64,000 nt of DNA, from positions 1 through 64,000 of the forward strand of contig JABWBB010000002.1 of assembly GCA_013360675.1 (NCBI GenBank). The letters run 5' to 3'. This document shows, piece after piece, positions 8,815-28,798 of this stretch; the stretch's first letter is position 1; every line of letters starts with the position of its first letter. The translations under genes were made by a program, and so were the position numbers. The notes below the pieces were generated by a model. It had not been told where the DNA came from, searched no databases, and saw only the letters and a list, made by a program, of their open reading frames with translations. Source of the stretch: Phycisphaerales bacterium (GTDB lineage: Bacteria; Planctomycetota; Phycisphaerae; Phycisphaerales; UBA1924).

Positions 8815-8860
8815 CCCAAGCGCACACGCCCAGCAAGCCAATCGACCGGAGTCCTCATCC

Positions 8861-10150: not shown

Positions 10151-10194
10151 GTTGCTCCCTGATCACTGTTGCCGAACCCAGAAAGGAACACACC

Positions 10195-10768: not shown

Positions 10769-10819
10769 GCCCTGCCGGTGCCGCAGCGCACTCGGCATTC
10801 ACACTCGAACGTTCCCCGA

Positions 10820-10844
10820 GGCCCGGCGGGGTGTTGCCCGGGCC
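10820..10844 (+). other. GC-rich hairpin before the copper-storage gene
   Basis: GGCCCGG (10820-10826) and CCGGGCC (10838-10844) form a 7-bp stem with an 11-base loop and no T-run. It lies between the DUF5676 gene and the Csp gene and may be a weak terminator or processing site. Confidence 0.3.
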
Positions 10845-10900
10845 ACCGTTCAAACCGTCCGCCGTCGACGACCGTCGCGGAGACACAGAAGGAGTCGATC

Positions 10901-11242: not shown

Positions 11243-11250
11243 ACCCCCGC

Positions 11251-11282
11251 GCGGTCCGCCGGGCGGCAGCTCGACGGACCGC
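11251..11282 (+). terminator. Stem-loop after the Csp gene, possible terminator
   Basis: GCGGTCCG (11251-11258) and CGGACCGC (11275-11282) form a perfect 8-bp stem nine bases after the Csp stop. Only TT follows, so termination would be weak or factor-assisted. It separates the Csp gene from the CsoR promoter. Confidence 0.4.
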
Positions 11283-11347
11283 TTGCCCCGATCCCGCGTC
11301 AACCGGATCTGCCGTGTTTCCTCGGACGGGAAGCCTGCCCCGAGGGC

Positions 11348-11376
11348 TTGACGGATATACTCCGGGGGAGTATACT
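11348..11376 (+). promoter_or_regulatory. csoR promoter
   Basis: TTGACG (11348-11353) and TATACT (11371-11376) lie 17 bases apart, close to the sigma70 consensus. The start codon of csoR is at 11396, with TGGAGG at 11381-11386. The spacer and most of the -10 are occupied by the CsoR-type palindrome. Confidence 0.75.
11356..11374. promoter_or_regulatory. CsoR-type operator
   Basis: TATACTCC (11356-11363) and GGAGTATA (11367-11374) flank GGG. A short AT-edged palindrome with a G/C-rich centre is the known CsoR/RcnR operator class. It overlaps the -10 box, so bound repressor would block RNA polymerase, and Cu(I) would relieve it. Autoregulation by the adjacent csoR gene is inferred. Confidence 0.75.
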
Positions 11377-11395
11377 TTGGTGGAGGTTTTCGACC

Positions 11396-11857
11396 ATGCC
11401 TGACAAGCGCAAGCACACCCAGAACGGCCACGCCAAGCCAGCGCGCCAAGCGGCAACCCGCGAGGCCGTCGTCCGCTCGCCGTCCACGGAGGCGGCTTCC
11501 GCGTGCTGCGGCTGCGGAGTTGCGCCCAAGGGCGACGTCGGGGCGGCACGCGATGGCGTCGGCCCTGGGGCGCACGCCGTCGGCGTCGATGCGTCTCTCA
11601 AGGAGGCCAACCTGAAGCACCTCAAGCGGATCGAGGGACAGGTGCGCGGCCTGGCGGCCATGATCGACGAGGACCGGTACTGCGCCGACATCATCCAGCA
11701 GTGCGCTGCTGTGCAGGAGTCACTCCGATCGGTCTCAAAGAACCTTCTGAAGAACCACCTCACGCACTGCGCGACGCACGCGATGCACGGCGCTCCGGCC
11801 CAGCGTGAGGCCATGGTCGAGGAGCTGATCACGCTGGTGGGCAGGATCGCCCGGTAG
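11396..11857 (+). CDS. csoR: CsoR-family copper-sensing repressor
   Basis: 153 residues. A Cys-containing N-terminal extension of about 60 residues (ACCGCG) is followed by the helical CsoR/FrmR domain (LKHLKRIEGQVRGLAAMID). The Cu(I) ligands are C96, H121 and C125. Their spacing (25 and 4) is the same as C36/H61/C65 of the characterised CsoR. In that family Cu(I) binding releases DNA. The start at 11396 is chosen because the promoter and operator lie directly upstream; a longer reading would start inside the promoter. It probably controls the HMA lipoprotein, barrel, small membrane protein and CopA genes downstream. Confidence 0.9.
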   Translation: MPDKRKHTQNGHAKPARQAATREAVVRSPSTEAASACCGCGVAPKGDVGAARDGVGPGAHAVGVDASLKEANLKHLKRIEGQVRGLAAMIDEDRYCADIIQQCAAVQESLRSVSKNLLKNHLTHCATHAMHGAPAQREAMVEELITLVGRIAR

Positions 11858-11948
11858 GACGTCGGACATCGGAACTGGTTGCGGCCCCGATCGCCCGCGT
11901 TGGGCGCGGTGGTGTGCTGCGCGTCGACAGTGGACAAGGAGACAACAC

Positions 11949-12305
11949 ATGGCGAATCAAAGAAAGACTTTCGGCACGGTGCTCGGCCTGGGTATCACCG
12001 CACTCACGCTGTCGGGATGCGCGAGCGGACCCCGCACGGACGGCCCGGCGGGGCTCACCGATCCGGCCGCTGTGGTCGAGAGTCCGACGGCGACGCTGGT
12101 CGTGCACGGCATGAGCTGCCCGCTGTGCGCCAACAACGTGGACAAGCAGCTGCTTGAGGTCCCCGGTGTCTCGAGCGTCCACGTGGACATGGGCACGGGC
12201 GAGGCCAAGGTGGAGTTCCTCCCCAAGGCCCGGGTCACCAAGCAGCAACTGGCCGACGCGGTCTACAAGAGCGGCTTCACGCTGGCGGAGGTTCGCGTCC
12301 CATGA
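11949..12305 (+). CDS. HMA-domain lipoprotein
   Basis: 118 residues. A lipoprotein signal peptide (LTLSGC, C24) and short linker precede one heavy-metal-associated domain with the Cu(I) motif HGMSCPLC (C57, C60). It looks like a CopZ/Atx1-type metallochaperone moved to the membrane surface. It could capture copper outside the cytoplasm or pass it to envelope partners (inference). AAGGAG precedes the start, and its stop overlaps the next gene by four bases. Confidence 0.85.
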   Translation: MANQRKTFGTVLGLGITALTLSGCASGPRTDGPAGLTDPAAVVESPTATLVVHGMSCPLCANNVDKQLLEVPGVSSVHVDMGTGEAKVEFLPKARVTKQQLADAVYKSGFTLAEVRVP

Positions 12306-13171
12306 GCCTGCTCCTCCGTCGACCACGATCCGTTCCATTTCTCCGATGCGGGCTCGCCGCGACACTCGCGGTCGTCCTCGCGCCCGTCGCGCTGGCGCAG
12401 GAGGCGACGAACACGCCGGCCGCGACCCAGCCCTCGGTGGGCAAGTGGTACCTCCGCGAGAAGGTGCAGTACTTCAAGCTCGGCAACGACCCGTCGCCGG
12501 AGAAACGCGACATCGACAAGATCGTGGCCACCACCACGCTCGCCTATGGCATCACCCGCGACCTCTCGGCTTCGCTCGAACTCCCGCTCGTGCTCAGCTT
12601 TGAGGATCCCGTGGGAACCGCCGGGAGCAACACCGACTTCGGAGCCAACGACCTCTCGCTTTCGCTCAAGTGGCGCCCGTTCCAGTGGGATCTCAACCCC
12701 GTCGACTCGGTGCGGCTCGCCTTCTTCGGCGGCGTCGAAGCGCCGACGGGCTCGGGCGACTTCGGGAGCCACTCCTGGGATCCGTACGTGGGGGCGGTCT
12801 TCACGGCGATCCTCGGGCGCCACGGTTTCAACCAGAGCCTCTCGTACAAGTTCAACACCGGGGGCGACCGCTTCAACACCCGCGCCGGCGACGGGCCCGA
12901 CGACGCGCTCCGCTACGACACGGCCTACTTGTTCCGCCTCGACCCGGCGGAGTACACCGCGCAAACCACCGCAGCGACGTATCTCACGTTCGAACTCAAC
13001 GGCCTGTACGAGACCGGCGGCGACAACGAGATCCTCTTCGGACCTGGGCTGCTGTACGAGGCCCGGACCTTCGCGCTCGAGGCCACCGTCGGCTTCCCCA
13101 TTGTGCAGGACGTGCGAGAGCGCCCCGAGACCGACCTCGTCGTCACCCTCGGGTTCAGGATCCTGTTCTGA
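12302..13171 (+). CDS. Outer-membrane beta-barrel protein (phenol-MetA-like)
   Basis: 289 residues. A signal peptide (about 1-32, ending ALAQ) is followed by alternating beta strands, ending in a terminal aromatic (FRILF) as expected for barrel insertion. The repeated pattern of polar/hydrophobic strands (ITRDLSASLELPLVLSF, LSLSLKWRPF, GDNEILFGPGLLYE) fits the 'putative MetA-pathway of phenol degradation' transporter-like barrels. Substrate is unknown. It overlaps the HMA lipoprotein gene (ATGA) and precedes a very small Cys-rich gene. Confidence 0.7.
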   Translation: MSLLLRRPRSVPFLRCGLAATLAVVLAPVALAQEATNTPAATQPSVGKWYLREKVQYFKLGNDPSPEKRDIDKIVATTTLAYGITRDLSASLELPLVLSFEDPVGTAGSNTDFGANDLSLSLKWRPFQWDLNPVDSVRLAFFGGVEAPTGSGDFGSHSWDPYVGAVFTAILGRHGFNQSLSYKFNTGGDRFNTRAGDGPDDALRYDTAYLFRLDPAEYTAQTTAATYLTFELNGLYETGGDNEILFGPGLLYEARTFALEATVGFPIVQDVRERPETDLVVTLGFRILF

Positions 13172-13189
13172 TGACACAGAGGAGACGCC

Positions 13190-13375
13190 ATTAGCTGCAA
13201 CTGCGGATGCCACGATGACAAGCCCCCGGCTACGGGATGGCGCAGGTATGTGCCGGTGATCGTGGGCGTGGGAGTGCTCGCCGCCATCATCGCGGGGGCC
13301 TTCCTGAGGAAGGACGGCACCCAGGACCGCGGTTCGACTCTGCAAGCTCCGAAGACGACGGCCCGAACGCCGTGA
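13190..13375 (+). CDS. Small Cys-rich single-pass membrane protein with ATT start
   Basis: An open frame of 61 codons from ATT at 13190 to TGA at 13373-13375. It reads (M)[16 protein letters not shown], then a membrane helix (about 20-38, [19 protein letters not shown]), then a polar tail. GAGGAG ends five bases before the ATT. An in-frame stop lies at 13172, and no ATG, GTG or TTG falls between it and the ATT; the first GTG downstream would remove the CxCxCH motif. The motif and the gene's place between the barrel and CopA argue that it is real and binds copper. ATT starts are rare, so the start is the uncertain part. Confidence 0.6.
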
Positions 13376-13400
13376 AAGAAGTCGACACACTAGGACCACG

Positions 13401-15878
13401 ATGACAAGCCACGACCACCACGGGAATCATCACGGTCCCGAGCCCTCGCCACGGGTTGGGACCGCGGTGACCGAGCGGACCGATCTGCCCATCAAAGGCA
13501 TGACCTGTGCCTCGTGTGCGGCACGGATCGAGAAGCGCCTGGCAAAGCAGGCCGGCGTCGCGTCCGCGAGCGTGAGCTTCGCGACCAAGGTGGCGACCGT
13601 GACGTTCGACCCCGCCGCCACGGGGCCGGAGATGCTCGCCAAGGCGGTGGACGACATCGGGTACAAGGCTGTGGTACCCGAGATCCGTTCCGCGCCGGCT
13701 GCGGCGAAGCACACGGCGATGAACCCCGCCCACGGTCAGCCCGGGCACGACCACGCGGCGATGCTCGCGGCGCAGGGGCACGGCCCGCACGCCGGACACA
13801 CGATGCACGGTGGTGTGGCGAGCGAGGACCACTCGGCCCACATGAACGTCGGCGAGGCGGAGGCCCGGCGGCTGCTGATCAAGACGACCGTCGGGGCCGT
13901 GCTGTCGCTGCCGGTGCTGGTTGTCGCGATGTCGCACGGCAAGATCGACGCCTTCAACGTCCCCTGGATCAACTGGCTCCAGCTCGCGCTCACGACGCCG
14001 GTGATGTTCTGGTGCGGATGGCAGTTCTTCCGTTCCGCCTGGAAGGGCTTGCGGCACTTCAGCGCCAACATGGACACGCTCGTGGCGATGGGCACCGGCG
14101 CGGCATACCTCTATTCGCTCGCGGCGACCATCTGGCCGGGGTTCTTTGCAGGTGTGAGCGGAGCCGCGGCCCATGCCGCACACGCCGACGGCACGATGGG
14201 CGGCATGGTCATGGTCCCCGTGTACTACGAGGCCGCGGCGGTCATCATCGTCCTGATCCTGCTGGGCAAGTACTTCGAGGCCCGGGCCACGGGACGGACC
14301 AGCGCCGCGATCAAGCGTCTGATCGGATTGCAGCCCAAGACCGCACGGGTCATTCGGAACGGCTCCGAGCAGGATGTGCCGATCGAATCCGTGATCGTGG
14401 GCGACCGCGTGCTGGTGCGCCCAGGCGAGAAGATCCCCGTGGACGGGAACGTCGAGAGCGGCCAGTCCGCGGTGGATGAGTCCATGCTCACCGGCGAGAG
14501 CGTGCCCGTCGAGAAGGCCGCCGGCGACAGAGTCTTTGGCGCGACGATGAACACGACCGGCGCCCTGCGGCTGGTGGCGACCAAGGTCGGGGCCGACTCG
14601 GCCCTCCAGCAGATCGTGCGGCTTGTGCAGGAGGCGCAGGGCAGCAAGGCCCCGATCGCCCGCCTGGCCGACACGATCAGCGGCGTGTTCGTTCCCATCG
14701 TGATCGCCATCGCTATCGTGACGTTCGTGGTCTGGTGGTTCGTCTCACCGGCAGACTCGCGGCTCAGCATGGCGCTGGTCACGGCCGTCTCGGTGCTCAT
14801 CATCGCGTGCCCGTGCGCCCTGGGGCTGGCAACCCCGACTGCGATCATGGTGGGAACGGGTCGCGGCGCGGAGACGGGCATCCTCATCAAGGGCGGCGAA
14901 TCGCTGGAGACGGCGCACAAGCTCACGGCGATCATCCTCGACAAGACCGGCACCATCACGCACGGCAAGCCATCCGTGACCGACGTCGTGCCCTCCCGAA
15001 GTTCGTCCTTCGACACCACCCAGCTGCTCCGGCTCGCCGCCTCGGCCGAACGGCGCAGCGAGCACCCGCTCGCGGCTGCGATCGTGCGTGAGGCTGGCGC
15101 TCGCGGGCTCACACTTGCGGAGCCCACGGCTTTCCAGGCCGTGGTCGGACACGGTGTGGAGGCGGTGGTCGACGGCCATCGCGTGCTGGTCGGCAAAGCT
15201 GGCCTGCTCGACCAGCGCGGCGTCGCGGTGTCGCTCTCGGACGATGCCGCGAAGCTCGCGGCCCTCGGGCGGACTCCCATGTTCGTCGCGGTGGACGGGC
15301 GCGAGGCTGGCATCGTCGCCGTCGCCGACACCGTCCGCCCCGAGTCCAAGGACGCCATCGCGACGATGCACGGGCTCGGTCTGCGTGTGGTGATGATGAC
15401 GGGTGACAATCGGCGCACCGCCGAGGCCGTGGCCTCGCAGGTGGGCGTGGACCTCGTCTTCGCCGAGGTGTTGCCCCAGGACAAGGCCGACAAGGTCAAG
15501 TCGCTCCAGGCGGAGGGCCACGTGGTCGGCATGGTGGGCGACGGCATCAACGACGCGCCGGCGCTGGCGCAGGCCGACGTCGGCCTCGCCGTCGGCACGG
15601 GGACGGACGTCGCGATGGAGGCCGCCGACATCACGCTCATGCGGGGCGACCTGCGCGCCGTGCCGCAAGCGATCGCGCTGTCGCGAGCCACGATGCGAAC
15701 GATCAAGCAGAACCTCTTCTGGGCCTTCGTCTACAACATCGTGGGCATCCCCGTCGCCGCCGGGGTGCTCTATCCGCTCACCGGCTGGCTGCTCTCACCC
15801 ATCATCGCCAGCGCCGCGATGGCGTTCAGCAGCGTCAGCGTGGTACTCAACAGTCTGCGTCTGCGCAGATCTGGCTAA
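13401..15878 (+). CDS. copA: Copper-exporting P1B-type ATPase CopA
   Basis: 825 residues. Order: one N-terminal HMA domain (GMTCASC, C36/C39), a His/Met-rich linker (about 107-150), then the P1B ATPase core with eight predicted membrane helices. Signature elements are the CPC transport motif (C470-P471-C472), the phosphorylation site DKTGT (D514), TGE in SMLTGES, the HP motif SEHPLA, MTGDN and GDGINDAP. It pumps Cu(I) (or Ag(I)) out of the cytoplasm. It closes the copper cluster and lies under probable CsoR control. The first residues ([10 protein letters not shown]) are also His-rich, adding possible metal sites. Confidence 0.95.
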
Positions 15879-17763: not shown

Positions 17764-18602
17764 GCGAAAGCCACGACCCTTCGATTCCAGAGGAGCAGGG
17801 CGGCGGCGCTGACCAAGCGCCGCCGCCTCGCGCGCGGAGGCCTGTTCCCGAGCCCGAAGAGCCAGTCGAGTCCGACCACGCGACGGTGCTCGACATCCTC
17901 CGCGCGATCAAGTCCGGCCAGGTGAACCCGCGCAACGTCCGACCCGACGACCGGCGATTGTGCGTCGCTCATCTGGTGGGCGAAGGGTTGTCGGTCTCCG
18001 AGGTGGCGCAGGTGCTGCGGATCAGCGTGCGGACGGTGGCCCGCGACCGCCGGGCGATCAACGAGGAGAACGCGATCCAGCCCGATGCACGGCTGGCCGG
18101 CCTGTACGCGGGCCGGCTCGCCGCGGAGGCCGAGGCGACGATCGGCCGCATCCGCCGCGTCACCCGCGACAAGGACACGCCGCACGCGGTCAGGATCGAC
18201 GGCGAGTTCAAGTGCTACGACGTTCTCGACCGCTTCGTGCAGCGCCTGCAGTCCATGGGCTACCTGCCGACGGCCGCGCACCGGATTCAAGCCGATCTAA
18301 CCCACAACACCGGCGACCTGAGCAGCCTCGCGGAGCTGAAGGCCGAGCTCACCCGGCTCGAGTCCATCGACGCCGAGTGCCGTGTCATCGAGTCAGATGG
18401 AATCGGCGACGCCATGGATGACGCGTCTGAAGGCGACCTTCCTGCTCACGCCGGAGAGCATTCGGCACTGAGGGGCCCGGCCGGTGCATCCGTGCCTCGA
18501 GCCCAGACACGCGTTGAACGCGAGCGCCTGGAAGAGCAGGACATCAAGCGACGCATCGAAGAGAAGTGGAGGACCAAGAAGCCCGATGTCCAAGACCTCT
18601 GA
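17760..18602 (+). CDS. HTH protein, probable small terminase subunit
   Basis: 280 residues. A Pro/Glu-rich N-terminus leads to a helix-turn-helix (about 70-100: LVGEGLSVSEVAQVLRISVR) and then a helical region. The C-terminal tail is charged (RLEEQDIKRRIEEKWRTKK). The position right before the large terminase gene, the DNA-binding N-terminus and the helical remainder fit a small terminase subunit, but sequence similarity is not decisive. GTG start, overlapping the methyltransferase stop. Confidence 0.55.
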   Translation: MSESHDPSIPEEQGGGADQAPPPRARRPVPEPEEPVESDHATVLDILRAIKSGQVNPRNVRPDDRRLCVAHLVGEGLSVSEVAQVLRISVRTVARDRRAINEENAIQPDARLAGLYAGRLAAEAEATIGRIRRVTRDKDTPHAVRIDGEFKCYDVLDRFVQRLQSMGYLPTAAHRIQADLTHNTGDLSSLAELKAELTRLESIDAECRVIESDGIGDAMDDASEGDLPAHAGEHSALRGPAGASVPRAQTRVERERLEEQDIKRRIEEKWRTKKPDVQDL

Positions 18603-20190
18603 CACCCTCGTCGGCGTGCGGGCGGCGCTCTCGCTTCACCGTCGATCACTCGCGTCGCAGTCGCCTCGGGCGTTCGCCAAGGTGTACCTCGCCCGCCACT
18701 TCCGCTTGAAGCCCTCGCGCATGCACGAGGGGGTCTTCGAGCTGCTGGGTCAGGCCACCCAAGAACGCTCGAAGCGTCTAGCCGTCGCCGCGCCGCGCGG
18801 CCACGCCAAGAGCACCGTGGTCAGCCTGGCCTACGTGCTGTGGTCGGCGCTGTACCGCCACGAGCCGCTGATCCTGCTGGTCTCCGCCACACGCGAGCAG
18901 GCGGTGCAACTGCTCAAGAACGTCAAGGACGAGATCCAGGGCAACGAGCTGCTGCTGGAGGACTTCCCGGAGGTCTGCTCTCGCCCGGGCGAGGGCCGCA
19001 CGCCCAAGCCGTGGCGCGACAACAACATCCTCCTCCGCAATGGCGTCATGATCCGCGCCCTCGGCAGCGGCCAGGGCCTCCGCGGCGTGCGCCACGGCGC
19101 CAGCCGCCCCAGCCTGATCATCGGCGACGACCTCGAGAACCAGGAGCAGTGCGAGTCGCCCGAGCAGCGTGCCAAGATGCGCGACTGGTTCGAGAAGACG
19201 CTACTCAAGGCCGGCGACGGCCGCACCAACGTCGTGATCGTCGGCACCGTCCTGCACTACGACTCGCTCCTGGCCACCCTCGTCAACCCCGTCCGCGGCA
19301 AGGGTTCGGGCTGGGACAGCCGCGTATACCGCGCCGTCGAGTCCTTCAGCGAGCGCGCCGACCTCTGGGACCGCTGGGAGTCGATCCGCGTCGGCGAGGC
19401 CGAGCACGACGGCCGGCGCGGCCCGGTGGCGGCGGCGGCGTTCTTCGAGGCGAACAGACAGGAGATGCTCCGCGGCACGCGCGTGCTCTGGCCCGAGATG
19501 GAGGACTACCACCGGCTGATGCAGACCCGCGTCGACGAGGGTCGGCTGAGCTTCCAATCCGAGAAGCAGAACGAACCACTCGACCCCGAGCAGTGTCTCT
19601 TCTCGTCGGCGTCGTTCCGCTACTGGGATGATCAGAGCTCCGATCCTTCAGATCCCGCAGAGCTTCTCCGCAAGCTCGGCCCGCACACCCGCATCTATGG
19701 TGCCTGCGACCCGAGTCTGGGACGCCACGTCGGTCGCGGCGACTACACCGCGATCATCACCGTGGCCAAGGACGTCCGGGACGACTCGATCTACGTCCTC
19801 GACGCCGACATCGCCCGCCGCAAGCCCGAGCAGACCATCGAGCGGATCCTCGCGCTGGCGGGCGTGTACCGCTACGACGACTTCATCGTCGAGTCCAACC
19901 AGTTCCAGGAGATCATGGTCCGCCAGCTCGAGCACCTCGCCCGCACCCGCGGCGTGCGCCTCTACCCCCGCGCGGTGAGCAACACCGCCAACAAGCAGGC
20001 GCGGGTGGAGGGCCTCGAGCCGCTGATCAGCTCCGGCCGCCTCAAGTTCAGCCGCCGCCAATCCACGCTGCTGGACCAGCTCCGCCACTTTCCACTCGGC
20101 GCACACGACGACGGCCCCGACGCCCTCGAACTCGTCGTCACCCGCGCCGTCGAACGCCGAACAGCGAAGTTCGGGCGGTACGTGATGTGA
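18586..20190 (+). CDS. Phage terminase large subunit
   Basis: 534 residues. The N-terminal ATPase has a Walker A-like APRGHAKST (K75) and Walker B LIIGDDLEN (D181, D182), followed by a coupling segment (VIVGTVLHYDS). The C-terminal RNase-H-like nuclease shows CDPSLG (about 375), FIVESN and HDDGPDAL acidic residues. Such proteins drive DNA into phage heads and cut it. The start at 18586 overlaps the preceding gene by 17 bases. No portal, protease or capsid gene follows, so packaging here is either incomplete or depends on another phage. Confidence 0.9.
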   Translation: MSKTSDTLVGVRAALSLHRRSLASQSPRAFAKVYLARHFRLKPSRMHEGVFELLGQATQERSKRLAVAAPRGHAKSTVVSLAYVLWSALYRHEPLILLVSATREQAVQLLKNVKDEIQGNELLLEDFPEVCSRPGEGRTPKPWRDNNILLRNGVMIRALGSGQGLRGVRHGASRPSLIIGDDLENQEQCESPEQRAKMRDWFEKTLLKAGDGRTNVVIVGTVLHYDSLLATLVNPVRGKGSGWDSRVYRAVESFSERADLWDRWESIRVGEAEHDGRRGPVAAAAFFEANRQEMLRGTRVLWPEMEDYHRLMQTRVDEGRLSFQSEKQNEPLDPEQCLFSSASFRYWDDQSSDPSDPAELLRKLGPHTRIYGACDPSLGRHVGRGDYTAIITVAKDVRDDSIYVLDADIARRKPEQTIERILALAGVYRYDDFIVESNQFQEIMVRQLEHLARTRGVRLYPRAVSNTANKQARVEGLEPLISSGRLKFSRRQSTLLDQLRHFPLGAHDDGPDALELVVTRAVERRTAKFGRYVM

Positions 20191-20287
20191 GAGATCATCG
20201 CCTGGTGGTCGCAGTTCGTCGATCGATCCCGGCTACGCACCCGGAACCGGGGTGGACACGACGACCGACCACGCGCTTTCCAGAGGC

Positions 20288-20316
20288 TTGACCGCGTGAG
20301 GAAGGATCGGTAAGAT
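20288..20316 (+). promoter_or_regulatory. Promoter of the thymidine-modification operon
   Basis: TTGACC (20288-20293) and TAAGAT (20311-20316) are 17 bases apart. The first gene starts at 20342 with AAAGGA at 20331-20336. The -10 box lies inside a palindrome, which points to repression by the operon's own XRE protein. Confidence 0.7.
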
Positions 20317-20325
20317 ATTCTTACC
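20309..20325. promoter_or_regulatory. Palindromic operator, probable XRE site
   Basis: GGTAAGA (20309-20315) and TCTTACC (20319-20325) flank TAT. The arms are perfect and cover the -10 box. XRE repressors bind such short palindromes, and an XRE gene is second in the operon. Binding is inference. Confidence 0.7.
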
Positions 20326-20341
20326 AGTAGAAAGGACGCCC

Positions 20342-20632
20342 ATGACCACACGCATCAAGTCCGATGAGGCCGTCGAGCGGATCGTACACGAACTCCTGGG
20401 CCGTGGAGGCCATCCGTCTTCCGTGCGAGACGGCGACAACCTCATGCAGGCGGGACTCACCAGCCAAGACGGCGTTGAGATGGCTTGCGACTTGGAGGCG
20501 CGATTGGGCATCATCGTCCCAGGCGACTTCAACCCACTCGTCCACGAGAGCGGAAGCCGCATGCGCACGCTCGGTGAACTCAAGGCGTGGGCCCGCGCCC
20601 AGCAGCCGACCACGGCGAAGAAGGGAGGCTGA
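20342..20632 (+). CDS. Acyl/peptidyl-carrier-protein-like protein
   Basis: 96 residues. The stretch DNLMQAGLTSQDGVEMACDL, followed by EARLGIIVPGD and a final helix (LGELKAWA), has the order of a carrier protein. S41 takes the place of the phosphopantetheinylated Ser in the usual GxDSLxxVEL. The Leu after Ser is Gln here, so the fit is imperfect. If modified, it would carry an acyl or aminoacyl group on a thioester. It is the first gene of the operon, directly behind the regulated promoter. The ACP-like call is moderate; the cargo is unknown. Confidence 0.55.
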   Translation: MTTRIKSDEAVERIVHELLGRGGHPSSVRDGDNLMQAGLTSQDGVEMACDLEARLGIIVPGDFNPLVHESGSRMRTLGELKAWARAQQPTTAKKGG

Positions 20633-20636
20633 AAGA

Positions 20637-20999
20637 ATGGACGAAGCAGTCGTACAACGTGAAGCTATCGCGCGGCGGCTCCGTGTCGCGCGTGAGCAGG
20701 CCGGCCTGAGTCAGGGACAGGTGGCCAAGCTCATGAGCTGGCACCGCCCTACCGTCAGCCAGATCGAGGCCGGTCAGCGACGGGTCAGCGCCGAAGAGCT
20801 CGCCTCGCTCGCCAAACACTACTGCGTCTCGGTGTCGTGGTTGGCGAAGACCGGAGAACCAGACCAGGACCAGGCCGACCCCCAGCTCGAGCTCGCGGCG
20901 AAGGAACTCGGGAGGCTCAAGCCCGACGACCTCCAACGCGTCATCAAGCTGCTCACCGCCCTTAAGAAGAGAGGGGGTGGCCATGGCGATCACCGTTGA
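20637..20999 (+). CDS. XRE-family repressor
   Basis: 120 residues. An N-terminal HTH_3 domain (about 8-65: RLRVAREQAGLSQGQVAKLM, then PTVSQIEAGQR) is followed by a helical tail (about 80-115). It starts five bases after the preceding stop and overlaps the ImmA gene. The XRE plus ImmA pair is a known switch: the protease cuts the repressor when a signal is present, as in ICEBs1. It probably binds the palindrome at 20309-20325 and represses the operon (inference). Confidence 0.9.
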   Translation: MDEAVVQREAIARRLRVAREQAGLSQGQVAKLMSWHRPTVSQIEAGQRRVSAEELASLAKHYCVSVSWLAKTGEPDQDQADPQLELAAKELGRLKPDDLQRVIKLLTALKKRGGGHGDHR

Positions 21000-21849
21000 T
21001 GTCGCCCGCCTGGCGCTCCGCAAGGCTATCGAGACCCGCAAGCGATTGGCGATCCCGATGGACCACGCCGTCTGCGCTGTGGACGTCGCGCAGCAACTCG
21101 ACCTCGAAGTGTGGTTCAAGCCGCTCGCGAGCCTGGCGGGGATGTACTCCGGGGCAGACGACCCGACGATCATCATCGGATCGGACCGCCCCGCCGGCTA
21201 CCAGGCATCCGTCTGCTCGCACGAGATCGGTCACCATGTGTTTGGGCATGGAACCAGAGTCGATGAGTATGTCGAGGGCGCCGGTCGCGCCAGATCTGAC
21301 GACCCAGACGAGTCCCTCGCGAACCTCTTCGGCAGTCACCTCCTCATGCCTCAGGCCGCGGTCGCTCGCGTGTTTGCGGCGCGTGGATGGTCGTTGAAAC
21401 ACCCGACGCCCGAGCAGGTCTACATCGCCGCCGGATACCTCGGCGTGGGTTACCAGGCACTCGTCCATCACCTTCGATGGACGATCCGCTCATTGGCCGG
21501 AAGTGTCTTCGACCATCTGCTCGGGTTCCAGGCCAAGGACATCCGTCAGTCGCTCCGCGGCCGTGCCACGCCGCAGAACCTCATCGTTGTGGACGTTCAC
21601 TGGCTGGACCGCCCCATTGATCTGGTGGCCGGAGACTTGGCGTTTCTGCCCACCGGTGCTCGGGTTGAAGGCATGGCCGTTCAGCTCATCGATGAAAGCG
21701 AGGACCGCGTTACGATCCGCGCCACACGGCGCGGCATCGCACGGGCCGAGGCCTCCCGGCCCGAGTGGAGTTCGTTCATTCGGGTCATGCCAAAGTGCTA
21801 TGACGGCGCCGCGGTCCATCGACACCTGGAGGATCCAGATGAGCCATGA
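20983..21849 (+). CDS. ImmA/IrrE-family metallopeptidase
   Basis: 288 residues. The metalloprotease core has HEIGHHVFGH (H80, E81, H84) and the downstream zinc-site helix with SLANLFGSHLLMP. A C-terminal extension of about 120 residues (from about 170) has no clear match. The family cleaves XRE-type repressors, and its XRE partner is the gene just upstream. The ATG at 20983 is chosen over the GTG at 20977 because GAGGGGG lies about six bases before it. It overlaps the next gene by 11 bases. Confidence 0.88.
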   Translation: MAITVDVARLALRKAIETRKRLAIPMDHAVCAVDVAQQLDLEVWFKPLASLAGMYSGADDPTIIIGSDRPAGYQASVCSHEIGHHVFGHGTRVDEYVEGAGRARSDDPDESLANLFGSHLLMPQAAVARVFAARGWSLKHPTPEQVYIAAGYLGVGYQALVHHLRWTIRSLAGSVFDHLLGFQAKDIRQSLRGRATPQNLIVVDVHWLDRPIDLVAGDLAFLPTGARVEGMAVQLIDESEDRVTIRATRRGIARAEASRPEWSSFIRVMPKCYDGAAVHRHLEDPDEP

Positions 21850-22684
21850 GAACTGTGTCGTACCCGGTGGCAACCTATCCGTGGTTTGGGCCCGTGCTTT
21901 CCTTCGCGTGTTCGATGCGACCGGGGGCGAGCTCGCGCACCCGCTGCTGCTGTCGGTCACAGAGTTCAACAACCTCGGGGAGCCGGTCGAGATCCCGGCT
22001 ATCAGAGACGCCCTCGACGAGACCATCGACGCCATCAACAAGGGTGGCAATAAACGCAAGCTCCAGGGCGTCTCCGCCACCGCCAGCACCATCTTCCCGC
22101 ACATGAGCTGGTCACCCAGGTCCACCCGCCCCGCCGCCGAGCTGTTCGACCACTACAGGGACAAGGTGTACCCGAGGCTGAAGAAGCTCTGTTCGCTCAA
22201 CACGCATGGGACGTACTTCCTCCGCATGATCGACTGCCCGAGTTGCCGCCCCGATGGCACCCGTGTCAACCAGCTCGGGTCGATCATCGAGTGGTGGAGG
22301 CGAGACCGGGCCCAGGGCAAACGCACGCGCCGGAGCGCCATGCAGGTGTCCATCTACGACCCACCCCGCGACCACACCGGTTCGGGCCAAGGCGGCTTCC
22401 CCTGCTTGCAGCAGGTCAGCTTCGGGTGGAGCGACCGTGGCCTCGTGCTCTCGGCGTACTACCCGACCGAGTGGATTCTCGACCGCGGGTACGGCAACTA
22501 CCTTGGCCTCTGCCAGCTCGGGGCGTTCATGGCGCATGAGATGGAGCTGCCTCTTGACCGGGTGAACATCTTCGTCGCGCTCCCCGAGCGTGGGAGCGTC
22601 TCCAAGTCGGCCACCCAGTCGCTCGCGGACCTGCTCCGTTGCTACGAGTGCAATCCCTTGCCCGCAGCGGAGGCAACTCCATGA
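21839..22684 (+). CDS. Divergent thymidylate-synthase-fold protein
   Basis: 281 residues. The C-terminal half aligns by spacing with ThyA: FPC (C189) matches the nucleophile C146 of E. coli, and N220 in GNYLGL lies exactly 31 residues on, matching N177. The phosphate-binding RSxD is replaced by PTEW, and the H207/Y209 pair is absent. It may therefore act on a different or non-phosphorylated pyrimidine, or be a regulatory paralogue. Starts at 21839 inside the ImmA gene and overlaps the kinase gene by ATGA. The fold call rests on these motifs and the neighbouring genes, so it is moderate. Confidence 0.55.
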   Translation: MSHENCVVPGGNLSVVWARAFLRVFDATGGELAHPLLLSVTEFNNLGEPVEIPAIRDALDETIDAINKGGNKRKLQGVSATASTIFPHMSWSPRSTRPAAELFDHYRDKVYPRLKKLCSLNTHGTYFLRMIDCPSCRPDGTRVNQLGSIIEWWRRDRAQGKRTRRSAMQVSIYDPPRDHTGSGQGGFPCLQQVSFGWSDRGLVLSAYYPTEWILDRGYGNYLGLCQLGAFMAHEMELPLDRVNIFVALPERGSVSKSATQSLADLLRCYECNPLPAAEATP

Positions 22685-23301
22685 CCGCCGGTCGACTCAT
22701 CGTTCTGGAAGGTCCGGACGGTGCCGGCAAGAGCACGACATCGGCGCGCTTGGCCGAGCGGCTGCGCTCGGCCGGGGAGTGCGTGTCCTGCTTTGCGCTC
22801 CCAGGCAACGAACCCGGCTCGCTCGGCAAACACGTGCACGGCCTCCACCACGAACCGACGCGTCACGGGGTCCGTGGCATCCACGCTACGGCTCTGCAAG
22901 TGCTGCACGCTGCCGCTCACATTGACTCGATCTACACCACTATCCGGCCAGCGCTGGAGCGGGGAGACATCGTGATCATGGACCGGTTCTGGTGGTCCAC
23001 CCTCGTCTACGGCCGCGTCACAGGAGTCGACGCCGTGACGCTCGGGTTGCTACAGCAACTCGCCGAGCACCACTGGAGATTCGCCGTGCCGTCGGCTGCC
23101 TACGTGCTCATGGGACAGTCGGATGGTCCGCCAAGCGCGCAGAGCCAGACGGATCAGCTCCGCCACGCCTACTCGGAGTTCGTTGCGGCGCTCACGGTCT
23201 CTTTCCCAGTCCGGGTACTGCACGCTAGCGGAGTGAACGACCACTATGCAGAGCAGATCCTGCAGGAGTTCGGGGCCCGTGGCCGACGTAGTCCCGCATG
23301 A
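22681..23301 (+). CDS. Thymidylate-kinase-like P-loop kinase
   Basis: 206 residues. P-loop LEGPDGAGKST (K17), DR motif IVIMDRFWWS (D101, R102) and overall length match dTMP kinases. The LID region (MGQSDGPPSAQSQTDQ) lacks the usual cluster of arginines, so catalysis or substrate may differ. In this operon it could phosphorylate a modified dTMP analogue made by the flanking ThyA-like proteins (inference). It is coupled to both neighbours by four-base overlaps. It is not the obvious housekeeping tmk. Confidence 0.75.
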   Translation: MTAGRLIVLEGPDGAGKSTTSARLAERLRSAGECVSCFALPGNEPGSLGKHVHGLHHEPTRHGVRGIHATALQVLHAAAHIDSIYTTIRPALERGDIVIMDRFWWSTLVYGRVTGVDAVTLGLLQQLAEHHWRFAVPSAAYVLMGQSDGPPSAQSQTDQLRHAYSEFVAALTVSFPVRVLHASGVNDHYAEQILQEFGARGRRSPA

Positions 23302-24374
23302 GTCCAGCGATGCCCCGAGCCACCTCACAACGCCGACCTCGCCGCAAAGGGCCTGCCGAACGTCCGTCGGCGCCCTATGTGTTCAGTCGACTGGCCCCGG
23401 TTCAAACTACTCCGGTCTACGACACGTACTGGCGGTTCGCGGTCGAGCGACAGGCCATTCTCCTCCGTCGCGCCCGCGGCGCTCCGGCCCCTTGGACGAA
23501 AGATCCAGTCCTCTTACGGCACAAGTTTACCAATGCGTACCGGGCGGCCGACCGCGTCAGTCAGTTCCTGATTGCGCATGTCATTTACCAGGGTTCCGCG
23601 CAAGCGGACGAGGTCGTGTTCCGAGTCCTGCTTTTCAAGCTGTTCAACAAGATTGAGACGTGGGAACTCTTGCAGCAACGACTTGGCGAACTGTCGTGGA
23701 GGCGATTCGAAGCCTCTCAGTATGCCGCCATTCTCTCTGGCGCCAGAGCGGCGGGCACGCGCATCTATTCACCGGCATACATCATGCCTTCCGCACGTTC
23801 GGCATTCGGATCTGCGGAGAAACACCGCAATCATCTCGCACTGATCGAGCACATGATGCGGGACCGCGTGACAACCAAGATCACGAAGGCGGCGAGCTTG
23901 GGCGGCGTGTACGCAACGCTTCGCTCGTATCCATCGCTTGGTCCATTCCTCGCATTCCAAATGGCGATCGACCTGAACTACTCGCCGATCATCGACTTTG
24001 ACGAGATGTCGTTCGTTGTGCCCGGCCCGGGGGCTCTGGACGGAATCGCCAAGTGCTTCAGCACGCGAGCCGGGCTCAACGAGGTCGACATCATCAAGCT
24101 CGTTGCCGACCGACAGGACGCCGAGTTCCAGAGTCGGGGTTTGACGTTCGAGCCTCTTGGCCATCGTCGGCTCCAACTGGTCGACTGCCAGAATCTCTTC
24201 TGCGAAGTAGATAAGTACGCGCGCGTGGCTCATCCAGAGGTCCAGGGCCTCAGCGGACGGACGCGCATCAAGCAGGTCTTTACGCCGAAGCGCGAGCTTC
24301 TAAAGCTCTGGTTCCCGCCGAAGTGGGGCGTCAACGAGGTCCTTTCCAAGCAGTTGCAGCAGGTGCCAAGATGA
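23298..24374 (+). CDS. HMUDK-helical/thymine-pyrophosphorylase-like protein
   Basis: 358 residues. The N-terminal half (about 40-140) shows VYDTYWRFAVERQAI, then PWTKDPVL, HKFTNAYRAADRVSQFLI and FRVLLFKLFNKIETWELL. I recognise this as the helical domain of the 5-hmdU DNA kinase / alpha-glutamyl- or putrescinyl-thymine pyrophosphorylase group. In phages making hypermodified thymine, such proteins act on 5-hydroxymethyluracil in DNA. The C-terminal half (about 190-355) has no separate domain that I can name. It lies between a TMK-like and a ThyA-like gene with ATGA overlaps on both sides. The family call is from memory of motifs; a profile search would settle it. Confidence 0.7.
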   Translation: MSPAMPRATSQRRPRRKGPAERPSAPYVFSRLAPVQTTPVYDTYWRFAVERQAILLRRARGAPAPWTKDPVLLRHKFTNAYRAADRVSQFLIAHVIYQGSAQADEVVFRVLLFKLFNKIETWELLQQRLGELSWRRFEASQYAAILSGARAAGTRIYSPAYIMPSARSAFGSAEKHRNHLALIEHMMRDRVTTKITKAASLGGVYATLRSYPSLGPFLAFQMAIDLNYSPIIDFDEMSFVVPGPGALDGIAKCFSTRAGLNEVDIIKLVADRQDAEFQSRGLTFEPLGHRRLQLVDCQNLFCEVDKYARVAHPEVQGLSGRTRIKQVFTPKRELLKLWFPPKWGVNEVLSKQLQQVPR

Positions 24375-25384
24375 ATGTCTTCAACGCCAACTCCGCTGAC
24401 TTGGCATGGCGACAGGCCGCCGATGCCATCGTCCGCCGCCACGGCGCTGACGAGGTGGAGTCTCGCAACGGTCGAGCTGTCGAACTCGTCCACGCATGCG
24501 TGACCGTCACCAACCCGCGCGCACGCTGGATCGCTTCCCGTTTGCCAGCGATGAACATCGCCTTGGCAATCGCGGAGGTGGCACAGATCGTGGCCGCTGG
24601 GGACGACGTGCCGTTCCTCGAGCATTGGTTCCCAAAGTACGGTGAGTACGTGGGGAGTCGTGACAAGGCCGCCGGCGCCTATGGCACACGGCTTCGGGTC
24701 AGGTGGGGTTTCGATCAGATCGCGCGAGCGGCCGAATCGCTGGCTGCTCGTGGCGAGAGCCGACAGGTCGTCCTCTCAATCTGGGACCCCCGGACGGACT
24801 TGCCAGAAGCCAATGGGTGCCCCAGGTCGGGTGACGTCCCCTGCAACGTCCTGAGCTGCCTCCGGCTGGTTGGCGGCCGGCTCCATTGGCTCCAGACCGT
24901 GCGGAGCAACGACCTATTCCGTGGCCTGCCGAACAACATCGTTCAATTCACCTGCCTTCAGGAGATCATCGCTGGCTGGATCGGAGCCGACGTCGGCCAG
25001 TACTCGCACACCATCAGCAGTTTGCATGCATATGTGAAGTCTCTCAGCGAGTTTCACATCGACCCAGAGGTGCCCGCAGTCGGCGAATCGTTCGACATCA
25101 GGCTTCCGCGCTCTGATGCAGAGGTCGCATGGACTAACTTGTACCGACTGGCGCAAGAGCTCGTCGCCCAAACGAACGACCGCCCGTCTCTGCCATCGTT
25201 TGCCACCGCGACCGACCTCGGACCCCTTCAGCCTATGTACTGGATACTCGTCGCCGAGAACGCCAGAAGACGCGGATGGCAAGCCCAGTCACAAGAGGCC
25301 GTGCAGATGTGCCATGACCGCACGCTAGTAACGATGTGGCACCGGTGGATCCGACGATTCGATGCACGGCATGCCCATTCGTGA
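24371..25384 (+). CDS. ThyA-family deoxypyrimidine (hydroxy)methylase
   Basis: 337 residues. All key thymidylate-synthase positions are present at exact E. coli spacing from the nucleophile: C158 (C146), R178-S-N-D181 (R166, D169), GLP, N189 (N177), H219 (H207) and Y221 (Y209). AGAYGTRLR and the Glu of IAEVA match the upstream TS elements. Asn at the N177 position predicts uracil rather than cytosine. It is either a thymidylate synthase or a dUMP hydroxymethylase, the first enzyme of phage thymine hypermodification. The operon favours the latter (inference). Last gene of the operon, ATGA-coupled. Confidence 0.8.
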   Translation: MNVFNANSADLAWRQAADAIVRRHGADEVESRNGRAVELVHACVTVTNPRARWIASRLPAMNIALAIAEVAQIVAAGDDVPFLEHWFPKYGEYVGSRDKAAGAYGTRLRVRWGFDQIARAAESLAARGESRQVVLSIWDPRTDLPEANGCPRSGDVPCNVLSCLRLVGGRLHWLQTVRSNDLFRGLPNNIVQFTCLQEIIAGWIGADVGQYSHTISSLHAYVKSLSEFHIDPEVPAVGESFDIRLPRSDAEVAWTNLYRLAQELVAQTNDRPSLPSFATATDLGPLQPMYWILVAENARRRGWQAQSQEAVQMCHDRTLVTMWHRWIRRFDARHAHS

Positions 25385-25578
25385 TGATTGGTGTTTCTCA
25401 ACCCGTGCGTCTCGCGCGAGTCTGGGCCGGGGTGGTCCGACTGGGTCTCGCTCCCTGAACCTGTTCGGCCCAGCGAAAAGATCGCCCGAGATATCAAAGC
25501 CAGTCGCGATCGTGGGCACATGGACCTTGGACCTCGGATCTGACGTTCCTGCTCCTTGGTCATGCGCACGAGACTATC

Positions 25579-26013
25579 TCATGGCTCTGACGTCTCAAAC
25601 AACCCTCGGGCGTATTTCCTGAACCGAGCCTTGGACCCTTTGGCCGCGATCTCGCGGATGATGGCGGCGTACAGCGTTGCCTCGGGGGTCTTGCCGCTCG
25701 GGCTCTTCCACAGGCCTCTGGCGGCCATCTGCTCGATCAACTCCTTCGCCGTCATCGGTTTGTTGGCATCGGCGATGATCTGTGCCGCGGCGTCCAGAGC
25801 ACCCGGGCGTTTGGGCTTGATTGCCTTGCTGGCCTTTGGTGGCTTCCCCGTGTTCTTGTTCGCACTCCTCGCGGCGCTCGGCTTGCCCTGCAATCGCTGC
25901 TGGATCTCGGCGATCGCGGCCTTCCGGGCCCTCTCGGTGCCCGCCACCGGTGCGGCTTTGGAGTTGGCGTCAACCTTCTTGCTCTTTCCACTTCCTGACT
26001 TCTTCCCAGTCAT
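25579..26013 (-). CDS. HARE-HTH domain protein
   Basis: 144 residues. A Lys/Ala/Ser-rich N-terminal tail (about 1-65) is followed by a HARE-type winged helix (about 70-140: ALDAAAQIIADANKPMTAKE, KTPEATLYAAIIREIAAKG, RFRKYARGLFE). HARE-HTH domains occur in RNA polymerase delta and in DNA-modification or restriction-linked proteins, and are thought to read DNA modification state. The ATG at 26013 is preferred; the upstream frame is not protein-like. It converges on the thymidine-modification operon. Confidence 0.8.
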   Translation of the reverse strand: MTGKKSGSGKSKKVDANSKAAPVAGTERARKAAIAEIQQRLQGKPSAARSANKNTGKPPKASKAIKPKRPGALDAAAQIIADANKPMTAKELIEQMAARGLWKSPSGKTPEATLYAAIIREIAAKGSKARFRKYARGLFETSEP

Positions 26014-26360
26014 AGGACTTCCTTTCCGTTGATGGCGATCGTGGCAGAGTGCCGCGGCAACGCGTGGCCGGCGACGGTGCCGACACGCAACGGATAGGAC
26101 CATCAACAGGCGAGGAAGGCAAGGTCCATCTGCAGCTACTCCGGCCCATTCACGCGATCGGGCTGGCGTCACCGACTCGCGATGCGTGATCCACTCGCGT
26201 CGTCCACCGCTCTCCGGATCTGCGGAACTCGGTTACCGAAGATTCGCGCGGATGTGCGCCGAAACCCCTTGCCATCTCCGAGATTACATGGCTCAGTGTG
26301 TGCGCCGAGCCGGGATTGGCGCAACTGACGCGAGGTCCCAGATGACGGCGGGAGTTGACT
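26014..26360. other. Divergent intergenic region
   Basis: 347 bases between the HARE-HTH gene (minus) and the DUF2924 gene (plus). It should hold both promoters, but I see no convincing -35/-10 pair, repeat or RNA gene. Confidence 0.4.
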
Positions 26361-27002
26361 GTGAAGCACGAACCGAAAGCCCAACATCCCGGACCTGCGC
26401 GGCTTGATAACGAACAACGCGAGGCGCGGGCCGGCGCCATTGATGTCGCGCGCCTTGCGGACCTTTCCATTGCGGATCTACGAGATCTGTGGCTGAAGCA
26501 CATGGGCCGGGCATCGCCGCCGTCGCAGAAGCGACTGTTGATCCGCGAGTTGGCGTGGCGGGTGCAGGAACGCGTCCACGGCGGCCTCGACGTCGAGACG
26601 CGGAGGCTCCTCTCCCGCGCCATGCGAGCCGCGACAGCGGACGACAAGCCTGTCGATGCGGCCGCAGACGCGAACGGCGTGCAGGTGCCAACCGCGAAGC
26701 GCCGGCCGCGGGGCGCTGCTTCGACAGCGCGGGCCTCGGGAAACGACCTCCCACCGGCCACGAAGCTCTCCCGTGTCTGGAAAGGAGTCCGGTATGAGGT
26801 CTACGTCCTTGACGGCGGCCGCTTCCGCTTGGGGGGACGCGACGAGACCTACGCCAGCCTCAGCGAGATCGCCCGCGAGATCACCGGCACGCGCTGGTCC
26901 GGCCCGCGGTTCTTTGGGCTGACGACGCGTGAGGGTTCCGGCGACGAAGACCCGCGCTCGAGCAACAGGCAACGCCCACGCCGCAACGGAGGTGACTCAT
27001 GA
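26361..27002 (+). CDS. DUF2924 protein, recombinase partner
   Basis: 213 residues. N-terminal helical part (ADLRDLWLKHMGR, LLIRELAWRVQE), Ala-rich linker, then the DUF2924 core: RVWKGVRYEVYVLDGG, then YASLSEIAREITGTRWSGPR. DUF2924 genes are found directly before large serine recombinases, as here. Their function is unknown; a recombination accessory is plausible. A GTG start at 26361 is chosen because GGGAG lies seven bases upstream; TTG at 26355 is too close to it. Overlaps the recombinase by ATGA. Confidence 0.8.
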   Translation: MKHEPKAQHPGPARLDNEQREARAGAIDVARLADLSIADLRDLWLKHMGRASPPSQKRLLIRELAWRVQERVHGGLDVETRRLLSRAMRAATADDKPVDAAADANGVQVPTAKRRPRGAASTARASGNDLPPATKLSRVWKGVRYEVYVLDGGRFRLGGRDETYASLSEIAREITGTRWSGPRFFGLTTREGSGDEDPRSSNRQRPRRNGGDS

Positions 27003-28798
27003 CCACGCCGATCGTTCGCTGCGCCGTCTACACGCGCAAGTCGAGCGAGGAGGGCCTCGACATGGCCTTCAACTCGCTCGACGCTCAACGCGAGGCCGGT
27101 CTTGACTACATCAAGAGCCAGAAGCACCAGGGATGGACCGCCATCACTACCGCCTACGACGACGGCGGCTACTCCGGCGGCTCGACCGACCGGCCCGGCC
27201 TCCAGCGACTCCTCGACGACATCCGCAAGGGCCGCGTCGACGTCGTCGTGGTCTACAAGGTCGACCGCCTCTCGCGATCACTGGCCGACTTCGCCCGGCT
27301 CATGCAGACCTTCGACGAGCACAACGTCTCGTTTGTCTCCGTGACCCAGCAGTTCAACACCACGACGTCGATGGGCCGGCTGACGCTGAACATGCTCCTC
27401 TCTTTCGCCCAGTTCGAGCGCGAGGTTGCGGGCGAGCGCATCCGCGACAAGATCGCCGCGACCAAGCGCAAGGGCGTCTGGGTCTGTGGCCAGCCTCCAG
27501 TGGGCTACCGGCTGCCGTGCGAAGGTGATGCCGACTTCGTGCCGGGCGACCGCACGCTCCGGGTGATCGAACCGGAGGCCGAGTTGGTTCGCGCAATCTT
27601 CAATGGCTACCTCGAACTCGGCTCGCTGGTCGACCTCGCCGCCAGGCTCAACGCCGAGGGCCATACCACCAAGAGCTGGACTAGCAGTCGCGGCAAGATC
27701 CACGGCGGACGCCCCCTCACCGCCGCGTTCCTCTACCGAGTCCTGACCAACCCGGTCTACATCGGCAAGATCGCTCACACCCGCGGCCGCAACAACAAGA
27801 GCGTCTCCAAGCAGACTGAGGTCCACCAGGGGCACCACCAACCGATCATCGACCAAGCGACTTGGGACAGCGTCCATGCCCGGATGGGCACGATCGAACG
27901 CGAGTCGCGCCACAAGTGGACGCACACCCACCTGCTCAAGGGCAAGATCCGCACCTCCGAGGGGCACGCCATGAGCCCGGGGTCGGTGCAGCGCCCGGTG
28001 TCGAAGCGCGACGATTGCCGCCGCGTTCGCGGCGACACGGCTCGACGCATCGTCCGCTACTACGTCAGCCAGAAGGCCGTGAAGCAGGGCTTCATGACCT
28101 GTCCGATCAAGACGATCAACGCGGCGCACATCGACGACCTGATCCGCGGCTTGGTGCTCGATCACCTCAAGAACCACCATCACGCCAACCTGCGCGATCA
28201 GCAACCCGAGACACGAGACCGCTGGATCCGCGAGGTTGTTCACCGAGTGGTGGTTGCTACGGACCGCATCACCGTCGAACTGATCCACGAGCGGATCGCC
28301 GCATGCGTCGATGCGGCACGCGACCAGGGAACCAGCCGCGCGGCGAGCGCCTGCGACAGCACCAAAGCGGTACCGGCATGCCCCTTCACGCCCGAGATCG
28401 AAGATCGCGGCCAGCACATGACGCTCACGCTACGCATCCAGATCAAGCGCCACGACGGCCGCCGCGTGCTCCTCAGCCCCGACGGCCACGACCTGCTGAC
28501 CACCATCACGCCCGACGGATGCCCGGTCACCCGCGACCACCTCGTCCGCGCGGTCGGCCTCGCCTTCGCGTGGCACCGCGAGTTGACACGGGCGGACCGC
28601 ACAATCGAGTCGGTCGCGGTGCGCGCCGGCGTGACCGCCGGACGGGTTCACTCGATCCTCACACTGACGCAGCTCAGCCCGACGATCCTTCGATCGGTCC
28701 TCACCGGCTCTCTCGGATCGAGCGTCACCCTGCTCGATCTGCTCCGAGCAGCCCAGCGCTTGGACTGGTCGCGGCAGGCCCAGGCGCTCGGCGCGTGA
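26999..28798 (+). CDS. Large serine recombinase
   Basis: 599 residues. The resolvase catalytic domain (about 5-150) has YTRKSS (nucleophile probably S15), VDVVVVYKVDRLSRS and EREVAGERIRDKI. A recombinase domain (about 180-290: LVDLAARLNAEG, FLYRVLTNPVYIG) and a long C-terminal region follow. The usual zinc-ribbon cysteines (CxxC pair) are not obvious. Such enzymes integrate and excise mobile elements without needing long homology. It is the likely integrase of this island and is translationally coupled to the DUF2924 gene. Confidence 0.92.
   Translation: MTTPIVRCAVYTRKSSEEGLDMAFNSLDAQREAGLDYIKSQKHQGWTAITTAYDDGGYSGGSTDRPGLQRLLDDIRKGRVDVVVVYKVDRLSRSLADFARLMQTFDEHNVSFVSVTQQFNTTTSMGRLTLNMLLSFAQFEREVAGERIRDKIAATKRKGVWVCGQPPVGYRLPCEGDADFVPGDRTLRVIEPEAELVRAIFNGYLELGSLVDLAARLNAEGHTTKSWTSSRGKIHGGRPLTAAFLYRVLTNPVYIGKIAHTRGRNNKSVSKQTEVHQGHHQPIIDQATWDSVHARMGTIERESRHKWTHTHLLKGKIRTSEGHAMSPGSVQRPVSKRDDCRRVRGDTARRIVRYYVSQKAVKQGFMTCPIKTINAAHIDDLIRGLVLDHLKNHHHANLRDQQPETRDRWIREVVHRVVVATDRITVELIHERIAACVDAARDQGTSRAASACDSTKAVPACPFTPEIEDRGQHMTLTLRIQIKRHDGRRVLLSPDGHDLLTTITPDGCPVTRDHLVRAVGLAFAWHRELTRADRTIESVAVRAGVTAGRVHSILTLTQLSPTILRSVLTGSLGSSVTLLDLLRAAQRLDWSRQAQALGA

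Follow-up and report, generated by a model that had tools for sequence, protein, structure and literature searches.

A candidate mobile, self-repressed antiphage cassette that combines a carrier-protein-like gene with relatives of phage thymidine-hypermodification enzymes

The first 64,000 nucleotides of contig JABWBB010000002.1 of a Phycisphaerales bacterium (GenBank assembly GCA_013360675.1), hereafter the window, contain seven tightly packed genes on the forward strand, all open, at 20342-25384 (open reading frame (ORF) calls, not gene-finder predictions). They encode an acyl-carrier-protein-like protein (ACP), an XRE-family repressor, an ImmA/IrrE metallopeptidase (ImmA), a divergent thymidylate-synthase-fold enzyme (TS1), a thymidylate-kinase-like protein (TMK), a protein with the helical domain of 5-hydroxymethyldeoxyuridine (5-hmdU) DNA kinases (HMU), and a second thymidylate synthase relative (TS2). 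With moderate confidence, these genes are interpreted here as a mobile, self-repressed conflict cassette, most likely antiphage, whose mechanism would make a nucleotide or DNA base derived from 5-hmdU. If this is true, bacteria have turned the chemistry by which phages hide their DNA into a defence that can be induced and in which an acyl carrier protein takes part.

The evidence begins with the recurrence of the gene set. One genome per species was scanned, giving at least 532 relatives, of which the nearest 80 were kept; with plasmid and planctomycete loci added, 96 HMU loci were examined with profiles of the window genes, and because the 80 are those nearest the window, the proportions given below are biased towards its type. 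ACP is found in 60 of the 96 loci, spread over many phyla, and all 60 also carry XRE, ImmA, TS1 and HMU, with the order ACP-XRE-ImmA-TS1 kept in nearly all of them. Because every ACP locus carries all five genes, the grouping is far beyond chance, and the expectation of an initial annotation made from the DNA letters, that the same set would co-occur in other genomes, is borne out by this conserved neighbourhood. That annotation had described a seven-gene system; the genes and their coupling are real, but only five of them form the core, with TMK and TS2 as accessories that can be exchanged, and the alternation with another module, described below, had been missed. The accessories among the 60 ACP loci are TMK (33), MazG/MazG_C (28), TS2 (26), the holo-ACP synthase AcpS (25), DCD (17) and radical SAM (8). 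TMK co-occurs with TS2 (both in 23 loci, Fisher 5e-6) and TS2 and MazG avoid each other (Fisher 2e-4), both tests ignoring the relatedness of the loci. In 21 loci TMK forms the N-terminal part of a fusion with HMU, and both Pfam domains were confirmed on one such fusion. A radical SAM/SPASM protein, a possible tailoring enzyme, lies close downstream of HMU in 10 loci (for instance L081, 8984-10036), and on an Acinetobacter plasmid (L017) the HMU homologue is divided between two adjacent ORFs.

In the window the gene junctions overlap from XRE onwards, with ATGA at three of them. The host genome (2.92 Mb in 84 contigs, 97% complete) has a single HMU gene, and HMU is rare among planctomycete relatives, occurring in 7 of 392 genomes with the host's own counted. 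ThyX, a TMK and one AcpS are encoded elsewhere in the host genome, outside the operon, and since ThyX and TMK are thus already present, the operon enzymes are additions to the host set. A housekeeping origin of TS1, TS2 and TMK was considered and rejected in view of the host ThyX, the separate TMK and the lack of any other ThyA in the host genome.

A second line of evidence comes from the promoter. The initial annotation had placed a single promoter and operator before the operon, and such an arrangement is present as TTGACC-N17-TAAGAT with a palindrome that is unique in the genome and conserved in relatives. The -10 hexamer TAAGAT (20311-20316) lies inside the palindrome GGTAAGATATTCTTACC, at a spacing of 17 bp from the -35 element, and GGTAAGATATTCTTACC occurs once in the 2.9 Mb host genome when up to one mismatch is allowed. 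The corresponding pattern GTAAG-N5-CTTAC marks the promoter of ACP in 47 of the 60 loci, comprising 45 within the preset range and 2 whose ORF starts had been drawn too far upstream, and every copy of it (47/47) in the 1.46 Mb of surveyed loci is at an ACP promoter (shuffles, 0.00017). The aligned promoters share TTGAC, a spacer, the -10 TAAGAT within the palindrome, and then a third half-site. This is the pattern of autorepression travelling with a mobile cassette, in which XRE presumably binds the palindrome. Because XRE and ImmA are both encoded in an operon whose -10 sits within a conserved palindrome, it is very probable, by analogy with ImmA/ImmR and CapP/CapH, that XRE represses the operon and that ImmA induces it by cutting XRE. 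The operator motif is also a handle for finding further cassettes.

The operon, flanked by a terminase-like gene and a large recombinase, is carried as cargo by a mobile element. A gene set of ParB/methyltransferase-like, helix-turn-helix (HTH), terminase-like and recombinase proteins recurs in a planctomycete element (window 18484-28798 and loci L131, L132 and L133), and the slot between terminase and recombinase is variable: in L131 and L132 it holds a different gene, nuclease-like and common to both, and in L133 it holds little. It is because related elements carry other genes at this slot that the operon is regarded as cargo.

Table 1. Positions in the window of the operon, its control elements and the flanking genes of the element
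Feature	Position	Strand	Basis
Terminase-like protein, left of cargo slot	18484..20190	+	by eye, not profile search
-35 element TTGACC	20288..20293	+	read directly; TTGAC conserved ~22 bp before operator in aligned promoters
Operator palindrome GGTAAGATATTCTTACC	20309..20325	+	GTAAG-N5-CTTAC type
ACP (acyl-carrier-protein-like)	20342..20632	+	PF00550; serine in GLTSQDGVEM
XRE-family repressor	20637..20999	+	HTH_31 E=3e-16; CapH 8e-12 in PADLOC
ImmA/IrrE metallopeptidase	20983..21849 (alternative GTG start 20977)	+	PF06114 Peptidase_M78 E=1.5e-10
TS1, divergent thymidylate-synthase-fold enzyme	21839..22684	+	AlphaFold2 model, family motifs
TMK, thymidylate-kinase-like P-loop kinase	22681..23301	+	PF02223 E=4e-16
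HMU, 5-hmdU DNA kinase helical-domain / aGPT-Pplase1 protein	23298..24374	+	PF18723 HMUDK_hel E=2e-109
TS2, full-motif thymidylate-synthase relative	24371..25384	+	PF00303 5e-16; phrog_5131 2e-43
Large serine-recombinase-like protein, right of cargo slot	26999..28798	+	by eye

The seven gene readings of the initial annotation all agree with the Pfam, AlphaFold2 and fold matches, including the two whose assignment to unrelated families would have spoken against it: HMU belongs to the expected family PF18723, and TS1 has the thymidylate synthase fold in its AlphaFold2 model. The HMU model (predicted local distance difference test (pLDDT) 93.6) matches in Foldseek the 5-hmdU DNA kinases of phages SP10 (E=4.6e-15) and W-14 (E=4e-8), with phiRSL1 also among the closest, and in sequence the nearest of the phage proteins directly compared is PaMx11 gp50 (hhalign 7e-21, prob 99). 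The top PDB fold match was the PaMx11 glycinyltransferase PUGT (gp46), but identity with it was rejected, as the fold match is weak (E=0.05, TM 0.39) and orthology is unsupported in sequence (hhalign prob 0.2). DNA glycosylases were matched as well, and these weaker matches fit a base-handling fold for HMU. A search of HMU and TS1 by sequence against solved structures gave no credible match, and a Pfam scan of the operon proteins gave no transferase. TS2 is probably a dUMP (deoxyuridine monophosphate) hydroxymethylase, judging from its homologues; its family profile finds phage M6 gp58 at 4e-61, it matches PaMx11 gp51 at 1e-26, and the catalytic Cys and RSxD are kept in 31 of 32 homologues.

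These similarities extend to gene order. In PaMx11 (gp49-50-51), M6 (gp54-55-58) and LysYB2 a P-loop kinase, a helical protein and a thymidylate synthase follow one another, and the TMK-HMU-TS2 order of the window is the same, which speaks for the interpretation given here. The proposed homology to phage thymidine-hypermodification enzymes is supported for TS2, HMU and the order of the genes; a role of the operon in modifying thymidine in DNA is inferred. With the phage sets of the PaMx11, M6, W-14, SP10 and ViI type the window cassette shares a thymidylate synthase relative and HMU, both with strong homology, and it has in the same order a P-loop kinase that may not be of the phage type. Unlike those sets, the window cassette is bacterial, mobile and repressor-controlled, its kinase is TMK-like, it lacks a sequence homologue of PUGT, and the bacterial cassette adds ACP, AcpS and TS1. 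M6-type phages make 5-hmdU and put it into DNA, where a 5-hmdU DNA kinase phosphorylates it before further modification (PMC6449724). By extension from these homologues, once ImmA had cut XRE and the operon was on, TS2 would hydroxymethylate dUMP, TMK would phosphorylate the product, and TMK with HMU might act on the 5-hydroxymethyl group as the phage kinase does and so activate it, in a nucleotide or in DNA; in loci without TMK and TS2, MazG/MazG_C or dCTP-deaminase-like enzymes may supply the nucleotide. In the step that follows, the least certain one, TS1 and phosphopantetheinylated ACP could bear another group or add it to position 5 of the pyrimidine, and the end product would poison or mark replicating viral DNA. 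Phosphorylation of 5-hmU in a DNA template cut in vitro transcription to 37% of that from unmodified template (PMC6457204), and this lowering of transcription is a possible way of harming a phage.

What is new in the cassette is the putative chemistry of ACP and TS1. ACP scores 20.7 bits against PF00550, for which the cut-off is 20.8, and its phosphopantetheine serine, in a DS-type motif, is kept in 60 of 60 homologues; this serine and the presence of AcpS in 25 loci argue that phosphopantetheine is used in the cassette. TS1 has zero Pfam matches and matches TIGR03283 weakly (27 bits), but its AlphaFold2 model (pLDDT 92.5) resembles thymidylate synthases and MilA (E ~1e-8, prob 1.0), and its catalytic Cys (in FPCLQQ) is invariant in 62 of 62 family members, while the YQRSxD segment is replaced with YxTQxIFDRAYGN. 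An initial TS1 profile had picked up TS2 and was rebuilt; the new one reaches M6 gp58 at just 3e-6, compared with 4e-61 for TS2, so that TS1 is considered a distinct enzyme, and a search for TS1 in phages gave no match. The 5-methylene intermediate of thymidylate synthase can be trapped by thiols. We propose, tentatively and with low confidence, that TS1 joins the dUMP 5-methylene to the holo-ACP thiol, or moves an ACP-borne group to the 5-position, which would be undescribed chemistry serving inducible immunity; an ACP-tethered nucleotide is put forward only as a chemical possibility. We know of no carrier protein that is used in a nucleotide or DNA modification system. The literature searched contains no description of this gene set, nor of ACP, thymidylate synthase, MazG and IrrE together in defence, although earlier partial descriptions may exist (Iyer 2013, Burroughs 2015 and Wen 2024 lay outside the search). 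Of the remaining proteins, ImmA keeps an intact HEIGH motif (HExxH in 65 of 65 homologues) and bears an additional C-terminal region with no function assigned.

The same HMU core occurs with a different set of partners, and the ACP module (type A) alternates around it with a TIR-Nmad2 module (type B). Among the 36 loci without ACP, a ThsB-like TIR is present in 25 and Nmad2 in 23, often with a TIR-SLOG protein. A few of the others (L048, L093 and probably L071) belong to type A, their ACP having been overlooked or the locus being truncated at the end of a contig. Nmad2 is always accompanied by TIR (28/28). The two types are strongly anti-associated (1e-8, uncorrected). On the HMU tree the module type switches at least 11 times, with phyla interleaved (a FastTree tree with many weak forks), as is expected for a mobile cassette. 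Swappable modules and an operator conserved across phyla make the function directly testable. An array of TIR-SLOG, TIR, Nmad2, MazG, (TIR) and HMU in L041, L045, L047, L049, L052, L053, L054 and L072 forms a nearly fixed type B cassette across different phyla. On a Sinorhizobium chiapasense plasmid (L019), a thymidylate synthase of unusual length, an O-methyltransferase and HMU are found next to TIR, SLOG-TIR and Nmad2 genes, and this HMU is placed on a long branch. Four plasmid loci (L105-L108) are free of HMU and have a small unannotated gene at the carrier position, an HTH gene, a gene at the ImmA position, a C1 peptidase and TS1, followed by MazG in 3 and uracil-DNA glycosylase (UDG) in 3. 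The UDG-type plasmid loci lack the GTAAG-N5-CTTAC palindrome and have other palindromic sequences, for instance TGTCGGATATTCCGACA, an operator-like palindrome in L106. ThsB-like TIR, TIR-SLOG, Nmad2, UDG and Shedu occur in the surveyed loci either as neighbours or as alternatives, which speaks for a conflict role.

Several points weigh against an antiphage cassette built on 5-hmdU. The window cassette is without a nuclease or TIR effector. A comparison of the TMK profile with gp54, the P-loop kinase of M6, gave no match, and pairwise similarity to PaMx11 gp49 is weak (3e-5) and lies around the Walker A end, so that TMK may be an ordinary deoxynucleoside monophosphate (dNMP) kinase. Moreover, TMK is absent from about half of the type A loci and TS2 from more than half, and with so many loci lacking them, 5-hmdU synthesis would not be universal unless it is done by TS1. 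The partners of the core are nucleotide-pool enzymes (TMK, MazG, DCD), and in many loci without ACP, HMU is found with TIR-SLOG proteins and ThsB-like TIRs, both of which would suit a core that makes a diffusible modified nucleotide signal, read by TIR or SLOG elsewhere and here by ACP-TS1 or an unlinked protein, with DNA left unmodified. This is unlikely, however, as the closest relatives of HMU are phage DNA-base enzymes, UDG, a DNA glycosylase, stands beside TS1 in HMU-free loci, and the window operon is without a reader protein.

It is also conceivable, but distinctly unlikely, that the cassette targets phages already bearing 5-hmdU or hypermodified thymine, whose bases or nucleotides would be both trigger and substrate of a type IV-like defence; the cassette's own TS2 would make the modified nucleotide itself. 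The homology of the phage helical proteins, which implies a shared substrate class, is nevertheless in keeping with such targeting, as are the proposal that the DndF kinase domain senses modified phage nucleotides (PMC10853773) and the suggestion that 5-HMUDK is a defence against phages with such modified bases (PMC6457204). A biosynthetic cluster for a small antibiotic-like nucleoside, with ACP and AcpS acting as in natural-product pathways, would explain these two proteins, the occasional radical SAM (10 loci) and the likeness of the TS1 model to MilA of mildiomycin biosynthesis. Yet genes for adenylation, ketosynthase, transport or resistance functions do not recur around the surveyed loci, and the defence-type alternatives, cross-phylum operator and mobile context fit poorly with such a cluster, which is very unlikely.

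Among known systems, E. coli transcription units that an independent 2026 screen (DefensePredictor, PMC13092281) validated as protective against phages include thymidylate synthase, dNMP kinase, 5-hmdU DNA kinase and NMAD domains, which are listed in a figure legend and are not shown to form one unit; these units count in favour of the antiphage reading. These units and the TIR-Nmad2 relatives have the same enzyme domains around HMU as the window cassette, but the text of the DefensePredictor paper names no carrier protein, XRE or ImmA, and in our survey the ACP-TS1 module largely excludes TIR-Nmad2. No homologue came up in E. coli genomes when two HMU genes were used in a distant blastn search, which says little at the protein level. 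The CapH/CapP regulators of the cyclic-oligonucleotide-based antiphage signalling system (CBASS) are likewise a switch of HTH repressor and ImmA-like protease; unlike CBASS, the window cassette has no cyclic-nucleotide synthase (no CD-NTase cyclase model is among the PADLOC matches of the seven proteins), and its switch controls a different enzyme set. Thoeris shares the ThsB-like TIR with type B loci, whereas the window cassette has no TIR, and the ThsB-like TIR profile has no match at window 10001-40000. TMK matches the PADLOC candidate PDC-M51B (E=2e-13), but the matches of the seven proteins did not include its partner PDC-M51A.

Two observations concern neighbouring genes. In loci L015 and L016, which have neither ACP nor TIR, HMU has a methyltransferase and a DnaQ-like exonuclease as neighbours and stands upstream of a dnaE gene carried on a plasmid. 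In the window, a multicopper-oxidase-like gene and a heavy-metal P-type ATPase (~8855-15878), identified by eye and probably a copper-handling cluster, adjoin the element.

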